Shown here in pieces: positions 2,402-41,210 of a stretch of 64,000 nucleotides of DNA. Each line of letters begins with the position of its first letter. Within the stretch, counting starts at the first letter, position 1. The notes under the pieces are model-generated. The model was not told the DNA's origin, searched no databases, and was given only the letters and a program-made list of their open reading frames with translations. Source of the stretch: Hymenoscyphus infarciens. Its lineage: Eukaryota > Ascomycota > Leotiomycetes > Helotiales > Helotiaceae. The stretch lies in contig LLCB01000148.1 in NCBI GenBank assembly GCA_001414345.1, forward strand, positions 124,001 to 188,000. The letters are read 5' to 3'. The position numbers and the translations under genes were made by a program.

Positions 2402-2437
2402 GGTGTTGTGGTCTAGCGGTATGATTCTCGCTTAGGG

Positions 2438-2456
2438 CTAACCCTATGTTACAACT
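2438..2456 (+). other. canonical tRNA intron (position 37/38)
   Basis: The 19-nt insert lies one base 3' of the anticodon, the standard eukaryotic nuclear tRNA intron site. It includes CCCT, complementary to AGGG of the anticodon loop. The exact ends could shift by one base. Confidence 0.8.
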
Positions 2457-2472
2457 TGCGAGAGGTCCCCGG

Positions 2473-2523
2473 GTAAGTTACATTGACTTTCCCTTTCACC
2501 ACCCAATTCTAATAAACTTTCAG
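2473..2523 (+). other. GT-AG spliceosomal-type intron inside the tRNA T arm
   Basis: The 51-nt segment begins GTAAGT, has CTAATAAAC as a candidate branch site near 2509-2517, and ends TTTCAG. These are the signals of a short Pezizomycotina pre-mRNA intron, and the length is typical of one. Exact GT-AG excision restores a perfect 5-bp T stem and a 7-nt T loop, so the boundaries are supported both by splice signals and by tRNA structure. The segment separates GG from TTCAATCCC and so breaks the B box. It has no similarity to a bulge-helix-bulge tRNA intron that I can see. Confidence 0.75.
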
Positions 2524-2559
2524 TTCAATCCCGGGCAACGCCCAATCATTATGATTCTC

Positions 2560-2573
2560 TTTTTGCCCTTTTT
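2560..2573 (+). terminator. candidate RNA polymerase III terminator
   Basis: Two T5 runs (2560-2564 and 2569-2573) start 17 bases after the mature 3' end of the tRNA, and a T7 run follows. This is the usual Pol III stop signal and distance. Confidence 0.65.
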
Positions 2574-2932: not shown

Positions 2933-2940
2933 ATTATTCA

Positions 2941-3832
2941 CAGTGTTTTGGGTTTCCCCGCCTAATCTGTTATCCTATCCTTCCTTAACGATCCTTCTCC
3001 TTCCTACCTCTATTTTAAGGCTATCCCGCCTAATCCTATCCTAATATATCACTTCTCCTAGCCACTCTGATCCTATTCCAAAATTTATTCCGCCTATCCT
3101 TTCCTATCCAAGGTATCAGGGTAGCCTTTCCTAGCCTATAGGGGAGGCTAGGCAGAGTATATACCAGCCTCAAATATATTATTTGTAGTATTATTAGTGG
3201 ATTTAGTGCCACTTAAGAAAAGCATGTAATATTAGTCTCCAATCGGTACCTAAAAACAGGGGTTTTACCATAGTACTTAGTCCCAGGCGTAACAGTCCAT
3301 AACGGGGCCTTCTAAATAAACCCTGCTTTACTAGGTCCCGCTATAGACTAATTCGCCTAGGACGAAGTAAATCAAGTACCTAGTAGAGCACTTAATTTAG
3401 TACCGTTTACTCCTATAAGCCCTCGTATTTAAGCCTCAACCAGTTCCTAATATAATAGAAGCAACTCAGTGCCTCTAAGCATAGATTATTATAGACCGAA
3501 AGTTATAAGGGAAGTAGAGATTTAATAATATTATTATTTTTAATACTTCTTAAATTAATCTATAATATTAGTACTTTTTATTACTTTTTGCTTATTTTAA
3601 TATTTTTTACTTATATACTTCCTATTCTATCCTATCCTCCCTAGCACCTCTCCTTACCTAGCCCCCTCTTTTAGTCTTCCTTACCTCTCCTATCTAAATT
3701 TAGTATCTCTCCTACCTAATTCAGCCTAGCCTATAAGTGAAATTAGCCTATCCTCTCCTTTCCTAATAGAGAGGGGTAGCCTATCCTCTCCGGAGTGCTA
3801 GGCTGACCAAGGCGGGGAAAGCCAAAACACTG
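2941..3832. mobile_element. non-autonomous hAT element with 8-bp target duplication
   Basis: The ends are inverted repeats of about 23 bp starting CAGTGTTTTGG, followed by one mismatch and then TTTCCCCGCC. They flank 892 bp with no long ORF. The identical 8-mer ATTATTCA lies immediately outside both ends (2933-2940 and 3833-3840). An 8-bp duplication together with a CAGTG terminus is the signature of the hAT superfamily. The interior is rich in CCTATCC- and TAGCC-like short repeats, as in subterminal transposase-binding arrays. With no transposase it would depend on a source elsewhere. The intact duplication and similar ends suggest a fairly recent insertion with little RIP. Confidence 0.9.
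3272..3370. mobile_element. palindromic MITE-like repeat, copy A (nested in hAT element)
   Basis: About 100 bp whose two ends are inverted repeats of the form TACTTAGTCCCAGGCG / CGCCTAGGACGAAGTA. The whole unit is closely similar to the reverse complement of 18442-18542, so it is a dispersed repeat. It lies inside the hAT element and was therefore either inserted into it or captured by an ancestor of it. No coding capacity. Confidence 0.75.
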
Positions 3833-40334: not shown

Positions 40335-41210
40335 TCAATTGCCATTCTTCTCCAAGAACTTCAAAATGTATCCCGCAATCTCCTCCGTATGACTGAGAAC
40401 AGCAAAATGCCCAGCATCAAGCAGATGTAACTCAAATTTCTTAACATCCCTCGCAAAAGCTTCCGCGCCAGAGGGAATGAAAATGATATCGTGTTTTCCC
40501 CAAACCGCCAACACAGGAACATTCGAAGTACGAAAGTATTCCTGAAACTTTGGATACAAAGTCAAATTTGTTCTGTAATCATAAAGAAGTTGAAGTTGGA
40601 TATCCTTGTTGCCAGGACGATCTGTCAACGCATAATCCAAGTACCAAGACTCCGGAGCAACCTTGGATGGGTCTGGTGTTCCAAGAAGATATTGGGTTTT
40701 GTATCCTTCGAGTGTGAGTGCAGAATCCCGAATGACGGTCTTATCTTCTTCGCTTCCTGATGCCCAGAGAGCACGAATGGGAGCCCAGAATTCAGCTCCG
40801 AAACCTTCGTCGTAGGCGTTTCCATTTTGTGTGATGATTGCTTGGATGGATTCTGGTCTTCTCAATGCAAGACGGAAGCCGGTTGGTGCGCCGTAGTCGA
40901 AGACGTAGACGCTGTATTTTGTGATTTTGAGAGTATCCAGGAAGGCTTCGATGCTTATGGCGATGCTTTCGAAAGTGTATGAGTAGTTTCGATTCGAAGG
41001 AACTTCCGTGAAGCCATAACCTGGGAGGTCTGGAGCGATGACTCGGTATTTGGCACTAAGGAGGGGAATAAGGTTACGGAATTGATGAGAGGAGGCTGGG
41101 AAGCCATGAAGGAGGAGGATGACGGGTTTGTGTGCTGAGGAGTCTCCTGAGTCTCGGTAAAATATGTTAAGACCATCGGCTGAGACGGAGAAGGTGTTGT
41201 ATGGAGCCAT
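40335..41210 (-). CDS. alpha/beta hydrolase, haloalkane dehalogenase / epoxide hydrolase-like
   Basis: A single-exon 291-aa protein with the alpha/beta-hydrolase fold. It has an oxyanion-hole motif HGFP (residues 35-38), then APDLPGYGFTE (59-69), and a nucleophile elbow in which aspartate replaces the usual serine (VFDYGAPTGF, Asp105). The acid candidate is Asp241 (WGKHD) and the catalytic histidine is His268 (DAGHFAV). An Asp nucleophile followed by aromatic-Gly is the pattern of haloalkane dehalogenases and epoxide hydrolases, which form an alkyl-enzyme ester cleaved by water. A helical cap fits residues about 135-220. No signal peptide or TM helix, so it is probably cytosolic. It is the last intact gene before the RIP block. 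Substrate not predictable: the second halide-stabilising or epoxide-activating residues were not identified. Confidence 0.9.
   Translation of the reverse strand: MAPYNTFSVSADGLNIFYRDSGDSSAHKPVILLLHGFPASSHQFRNLIPLLSAKYRVIAPDLPGYGFTEVPSNRNYSYTFESIAISIEAFLDTLKITKYSVYVFDYGAPTGFRLALRRPESIQAIITQNGNAYDEGFGAEFWAPIRALWASGSEEDKTVIRDSALTLEGYKTQYLLGTPDPSKVAPESWYLDYALTDRPGNKDIQLQLLYDYRTNLTLYPKFQEYFRTSNVPVLAVWGKHDIIFIPSGAEAFARDVKKFELHLLDAGHFAVLSHTEEIAGYILKFLEKNGN

Follow-up and report, generated by a model that had tools for sequence, protein, structure and literature searches.

Can an intron of the pre-mRNA type reside in a nuclear tRNA gene? This question is raised by a tRNA-Pro(AGG) gene at 2402..2543 of the window (the whole 64,000-nucleotide stretch of Hymenoscyphus infarciens DNA analysed here); all features of this gene described below are on the plus strand. 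The 5' part of the gene (2402..2437) corresponds to tRNA positions 1-37, with the anticodon AGG at 2434-2436 and G37 at 2437. It is followed by an ordinary anticodon-loop intron of 19 nt between positions 37 and 38 (2438..2456). Positions 38-53 (2457..2472) comprise the 3' strand of the anticodon stem, the variable loop, and the 5' strand of the T stem, CCCGG. The gene is interrupted again between positions 53 and 54 by a 51-nt GT-AG intron-like sequence (2473..2523). This insert starts with a 5' splice-site-like GTAAGT (2473..2478), contains a branch-site-like CTAAT (2509..2513), whose presumed branch A at 2512 precedes the final base of the insert by 11 nt, and ends with a 3' splice-site-like CAG (2521..2523). 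Positions 54-73 (2524..2543) supply the T loop, the rest of the T stem, the acceptor strand, and the discriminator C73 at 2543. The coordinates and the two-intron anatomy given in the initial annotation were right.

Upon removal of 2473-2523, the acceptor stem is formed by GGTGTTG/CAACGCC and the T stem by CCCGG/CCGGG, closing the T loop TTCAATC, as had been proposed. ARAGORN, run with introns allowed, made no call on the full window sequence and called tRNA-Pro(agg) i(38,19) on the insert-free sequence; in other words, the insert hides the gene from this program, and its removal reveals the gene. With the Rfam tRNA model, a stretch of 191 bases containing the window copy gave no tRNA match at E<=10, and a stretch of 161 bases containing an insert-free copy from another contig (C208, see below) scored 43.7 bits. 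These two verdicts are comparable for such short stretches only, because a run on a longer stretch missed the insert-free copy as well. A cloverleaf with the correct anticodon was thus obtained after intron removal from both programs, in the case of Rfam through the identical sequence of the C208 copy. The minimum obtained by RNA folding of the spliced tRNA was not the full cloverleaf, whereas ARAGORN gave one.

It should be mentioned that the splice register is less strictly fixed by the product than the initial annotation had stated, namely that a shift of the boundary by one base spoils the T arm. A rightward shift does so. A leftward shift leaves the product unchanged, because bases 2472 and 2523 are both G. 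Of these two registers giving the same product, the original one and that one base to the left, GT-AG holds in only one. ARAGORN is uninformative on this point, since tRNA-Pro(agg) was called at every boundary shift tried, from -3 to +3.

The elements expected for transcription by RNA polymerase III are present around and across the insert. Box A, TGGTCTAGCGG, at 2409..2419 matches the consensus TRGYNNARBGG at 11/11 positions, and box B, AGTTCAATCCC, at 2522..2532 extends across the 3' end of the insert and matches GGTTCRANYCY at 10/11 (both consensus sequences are those in the consulted part of PMC7279448). The same scores were found in a second insert-bearing copy, C494. Box B survives because the insert ends in AG directly before TTCAATCC: the terminal AG occupies the place of G52 and G53, and the box still reads AGTTCAATCCC. 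When the insertion was moved in silico by 1-6 bases deeper into box B, the best match fell to 9/11 and was located elsewhere in the gene. Insertion 7-8 bases deeper gave 10/11, and 9-11 bases deeper gave 11/11; insertion one to three bases leftward left box B at 11/11. The gap between the A and B boxes is 102-105 nt in the insert copies versus 51 nt in C208. A T5 run, the presumed Pol III terminator, lies at 2560..2564, 17 nt after the gene; a T7 run begins 17 nt after C494, and a T5 run begins 24 nt after C208. Neither insert contains TTTT, which is present in four of five actin-family introns of the host genome. This absence carries little weight, because TTTT is also absent in 13% of the shuffles of the window insert and in 92% of those of the C494 insert.

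When the complete gene was used as the query against the host genome, five segments matched, and these fall into three loci: the window copy (hereafter C55) and the copies on contigs C494 and C208. Two looser patterns of the D arm and anticodon arm led to the same three tRNA-Pro(AGG) loci and nothing further, so that among the proline isoacceptors AGG genes alone were matched and no Pro(TGG) or Pro(CGG) gene was found. The C494 copy (C494:4896-5040, minus strand) has a 54-nt insert, GTAAGTTA...CTCAT...TTTAG, located exactly at 53/54. The C208 copy (C208:53981-54071, plus strand) has no T-arm insert. The 51- and 54-nt inserts therefore share the form GTAAGTTA...CTNAY...YAG and the exact 53/54 position. 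Outside the inserts, all 91 bases, including the 19-nt anticodon intron, are identical in the three copies. An assembly error, suggested in the initial annotation as one possible refutation, was rejected: inserts of different sequence occur at two loci on different contigs.

The two inserts themselves are much less alike. Their first 8 bases agree, as do 10 of the first 11, and the alignment is lost after about 11 nt. The alignment score of the whole inserts was reached by 0.009 of 3,000 shuffles; for the end-trimmed interiors, the score was reached by 0.60 or 0.78 of 3,000 shuffles, depending on the trim. The 60-nt upstream flanks show no likeness among the copies. Among the downstream flanks, only those of C55 and C208 are alike (score reached by 0.003 of 2,000 shuffles, as the best of six flank comparisons).

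Some other features of the window may be described here. At 1037-1793, transporter-like coding pieces, seemingly broken, were seen by eye. At about 2940-3800, CCTATCC-like repeats were seen by eye in an A+T-rich stretch with related motifs at both ends; this could be a mobile element or else a repeat that has mutated. At 40335-41210 (minus strand), an alpha/beta-hydrolase is encoded that shares 87% identity with HYALB_00000769 of Hymenoscyphus albidus, whereas identity is 69% or below for the other 119 matches listed; this puts the genome close to Hymenoscyphus.

The splice-like signals of the inserts were compared with chance and with introns of the same genome. In 20,000 base shuffles per insert, a GTAAGT start was obtained in none for C55 and in a fraction of 0.0008 for C494, and a YAG end in 0.016 and 0.039, respectively. 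The branch motif CTNAY is not rare in such shuffles (0.31 for C55 and 0.058 for C494). In the window, 5 of 34 GTAAGT sequences on both strands, including that of the insert itself, have CTNAY and YAG downstream at the spacing of an intron. A chance origin of these signals was nevertheless rejected as very unlikely, because the form and the site of the insert recur in a second gene. The extended GT...AG signals, GTAAGT and YAG, are present in both inserts. As for the branch site, CTAAT of C55 fits CTRAY, whereas CTCAT of C494 fits only CTNAY.

For comparison, boundaries of actin-family introns were set by hand, and the sample was restricted to the five introns that separate matched exons; introns lying within a match (on C603, C721, C133, and C98) are undelimited and were excluded. 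The five introns are 50, 50, 54, 58, and 61 nt long, so that the insert lengths lie within the 50-61 nt range of this small sample. They start with GTAAGT, GTATGT, GTGAGT, GTACGT, and GTATGT and end with CAG or TAG, and the CTAAT pentamer is found in two of them. In the predicted fold of the window precursor, GTAAGT is in a hairpin, with an unpaired probability of 0.01-0.02 at four of its six bases; the remaining two have 0.35 and 1.0. In the predicted fold of C494, the 5' splice site is mostly open, with its first G paired.

Taken together, the sequence comparison indicates that the tRNA parts and the splice signals have been kept, while the insert interiors and upstream flanks have drifted. 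This pattern disfavors a dead pseudogene or an assembly error and favors a spliceosomal-type intron in a working gene. If the insert copies were dead, the tRNA parts would be expected to drift like the interiors; the drift observed in them is zero. The Lys(CTT) family (L044-L047) serves as a yardstick: the four genes read have one exon set around four different anticodon introns, 14-18 nt long as delimited. This means that identical exons around diverged introns, the pattern seen in the Pro(AGG) genes, also occur in that family.

The main rival explanation is that C55 and C494 are non-functional, disrupted copies from which the insert is never removed, and that the remainder stays identical through conversion with intact C208 as the donor. 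Intergenic conversion has been documented to equalize isodecoder tRNA genes (PMC4090602, in the part available), and exon identity alone is therefore no proof of selection on each copy. The identity of the anticodon intron in all three copies hints at recent gene conversion, and the likeness of the C55 and C208 downstream flanks points in the same direction. The initial annotation had named several intact tRNA-Pro(AGG) genes elsewhere as part of the case for a pseudogene; one of the three copies found is intact, which approaches this situation without reaching it, and because of this copy the insert-bearing ones may be dispensable. However, for conversion to be the cause, the 71 nt before and the 20 nt after the insert must have been restored in two genes while the insert itself was never deleted. 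Disruption would also leave unexplained why GTAAGT, CTNAY, and YAG are kept in two inserts with unrelated interiors, and why the terminators and box B are kept. This explanation is considered unlikely. A Pol II origin is still less probable, to a degree that makes it hardly credible: a long Pol II transcript running through the tRNA would be the only RNA from which the insert is spliced, and the tRNA would not be made from that transcript. The pre-mRNA-type signals are present and the sequence is compatible with such an origin, but two loci on separate contigs have the insert exactly at 53/54, which, together with Pol III boxes and T runs, speaks against it.

Alternatively, the insert might be a non-canonical tRNA intron cut by the tRNA splicing endonuclease. 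A nuclear tRNA gene of Cyanidioschyzon merolae, tRNA-Ile(UAU), has an intron at the same 53/54 position in addition to one at 37/38, both with bulge-helix-bulge motifs (PMC9602550, as far as its text was available). In the present inserts, the strict form of this motif (a 4-bp helix between two 3-nt bulges, placed at the exon-intron boundaries) was not found: only 2 of 4 central pairs are formed, and there is no outer helix, in either register or either copy. With relaxed bulges, 3 of 4 central pairs are formed at the T-arm insert. Since the strict form is not found at the 19-nt anticodon intron of this gene either, its absence at the insert excludes the endonuclease only weakly. The yeast endonuclease is reported to be strict and to cut only at 37/38 (PMC4033280, consulted in part), and the presence of GTAAGT, CTNAY, and YAG would be left unexplained. 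Cleavage of the insert by the endonuclease thus seems improbable. A further alternative concerns origin only and is compatible with a spliceosomal-type intron: two independent insertions, introner-like or reverse-spliced, might have occurred at the same site of recently copied tRNA genes, instead of one old intron having diverged. The interiors and most flanks are unrelated while the exons are identical, and the 3' flank shared in part by C55 and C208 means that presence of the insert may not reflect how the copies are related. On the other hand, the agreement of the inserts at their starts extends beyond the six bases of the splice site, which favors a common origin. In addition, the many near-identical copies typical of introners were not seen: the window insert had no match outside these genes in the genome search with the window gene, which skips very common words. 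Two insertions are possible, and a single old intron is somewhat more likely.

Inserts of this kind were also looked for genome-wide, with patterns that allowed a GT-AG insert of 34-64 nt between positions 53 and 54, beginning with GTAAGT, GTATGT, GTGAGT, or GTANGN. The first three gave 3, 0, and 0 matches, and their reversed-pattern controls 1, 0, and 3. GTANGN gave 10 matches, including the 3 with GTAAGT, versus 25 in its reversed control. The two Pro genes are among these 10; no tRNA was recognized by eye in the flanks of the remaining eight. The insert pattern alone is therefore not rare, and what is rare is its placement inside a tRNA. The pattern combining a tRNA with splice sites gave 6 actinobacterial matches in the prokaryote collection and none in the viral collection. 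In an incomplete tRNA census, 63 of 3,357 candidates were scored and 55 were listed. It missed all three Pro(AGG) genes, including the insert-free C208 copy. The 36 matches outside contig C340 were read, and the 19 on this contig, which is putatively mitochondrial from its dense tRNA matches, were left out. The 36 matches say nothing on T-arm inserts, because a tRNA with such an insert would not score.

Several other genes were noted during this reading. L019 (G000:C224:5724-5884) is a single-copy Leu/Ser-like tRNA of 161 nt, in which the anticodon region contains GTAAGT...ACTAAT...TTAAG (54 nt). Excision of exactly these 54 nt gives a Leu-like loop TTCAGG and a 28-nt anticodon intron. The gene can be read in two other ways, with a CGA anticodon and a 19-nt intron or with one intron and the anticodon CGT. 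Its discriminator is G, unlike those of the four other Leu-like genes read, there is no TTTT in the 25 nt downstream, and the patterns found no relative with the same body. L019 may be degenerate, or it may be a second tRNA gene with a GT-AG insert. L017 (G000:C145:40351-40526) resembles a tRNA; the match spans 176 nt and includes a very long insert that seems to be in the anticodon loop. L020 and L021 are Leu(CAA)-like, and their anticodon stem is paired by eye with one T-T mismatch in both copies.

Some known systems resemble the window gene in part. U6 snRNA genes of Schizosaccharomyces pombe and other fungi carry mRNA-type introns, and U6 is a Pol III transcript. As in the window gene, a short GT-AG intron is located inside a gene for a small structured Pol III RNA; U6 in fission yeast is thus a precedent for a spliced Pol III transcript. 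The host RNA of the window gene differs in being a tRNA with an added endonuclease-type intron, whereas U6 is itself a part of the spliceosome. Splicing of U6 in fission yeast has reportedly been tested in pre-mRNA splicing mutants, whereas that of the window gene is read from its sequence. Ascomycete rRNA genes also carry spliceosomal introns, and for nuclear 18S rDNA, a messenger RNA intron is said to have been described in a 1993 study. These introns are likewise of the pre-mRNA type and interrupt a gene for a non-coding structural RNA, but rRNA is a Pol I product and the window gene is a Pol III tRNA gene.

Among tRNA genes, the window gene has one canonical eukaryotic intron at 37/38 (2438-2456); the T-arm insert is at another position, carries other signals, and would presumably be removed by another enzyme. 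A similar arrangement is that of C. merolae, the one eukaryote for which the table of PMC4033280 lists multiple-intron tRNAs. Its introns occupy the same two positions as those of the window gene. They carry the bulge-helix-bulge, whereas the window insert lacks the strict motif and has GT-AG, branch-like, and 3' splice-site-like motifs. The 53/54 site therefore has a precedent, and GT-AG signals at 53/54 have none as far as found in the texts available. In the literature covered, which was mostly that outside subscription journals, no description of a nuclear tRNA gene with a spliceosomal intron was found, judging by titles and the opening lines of abstracts; this is not proof of novelty.

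The explanation preferred here is that 2473-2523 is probably a U2-type GT-AG intron in a working nuclear tRNA-Pro(AGG) gene, and that both the spliceosome and the endonuclease are needed for maturation. RNA polymerase III, acting via box A and the surviving box B, would make a precursor with two introns. Excision of the T-arm intron by the spliceosome would restore the T stem and its loop, and the 19-nt anticodon intron would be the substrate of the tRNA endonuclease and ligase. The proposal in the initial annotation that a pre-mRNA-type intron entered a tRNA gene remains the best reading, strengthened by the second gene with a diverged insert at 53/54; transcription, removal by the spliceosome, the order of the steps, and function are inferred from the sequence. 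It seems somewhat easier to accept than to doubt that one precursor needs two unrelated splicing machines, one for a spliceosomal intron bordering box B in the T arm and one for an anticodon-loop intron of the endonuclease type, and that this arrangement has been kept in two of three genes until the insert interiors diverged completely.

The introns of tRNAs and those of pre-mRNAs are treated as separate worlds, with different enzymes, different signals, and different places of action. If the preferred explanation is true, standard tRNA searches overlook such genes, since both ARAGORN with introns allowed and the Rfam tRNA model on a short stretch missed the window copy. Box B would then restrict where an intron is tolerated in a tRNA gene. 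Spliceosomal introns would be able to settle even in tRNA genes, and the nuclear spliceosome would be able to act on a tRNA precursor made by RNA polymerase III.
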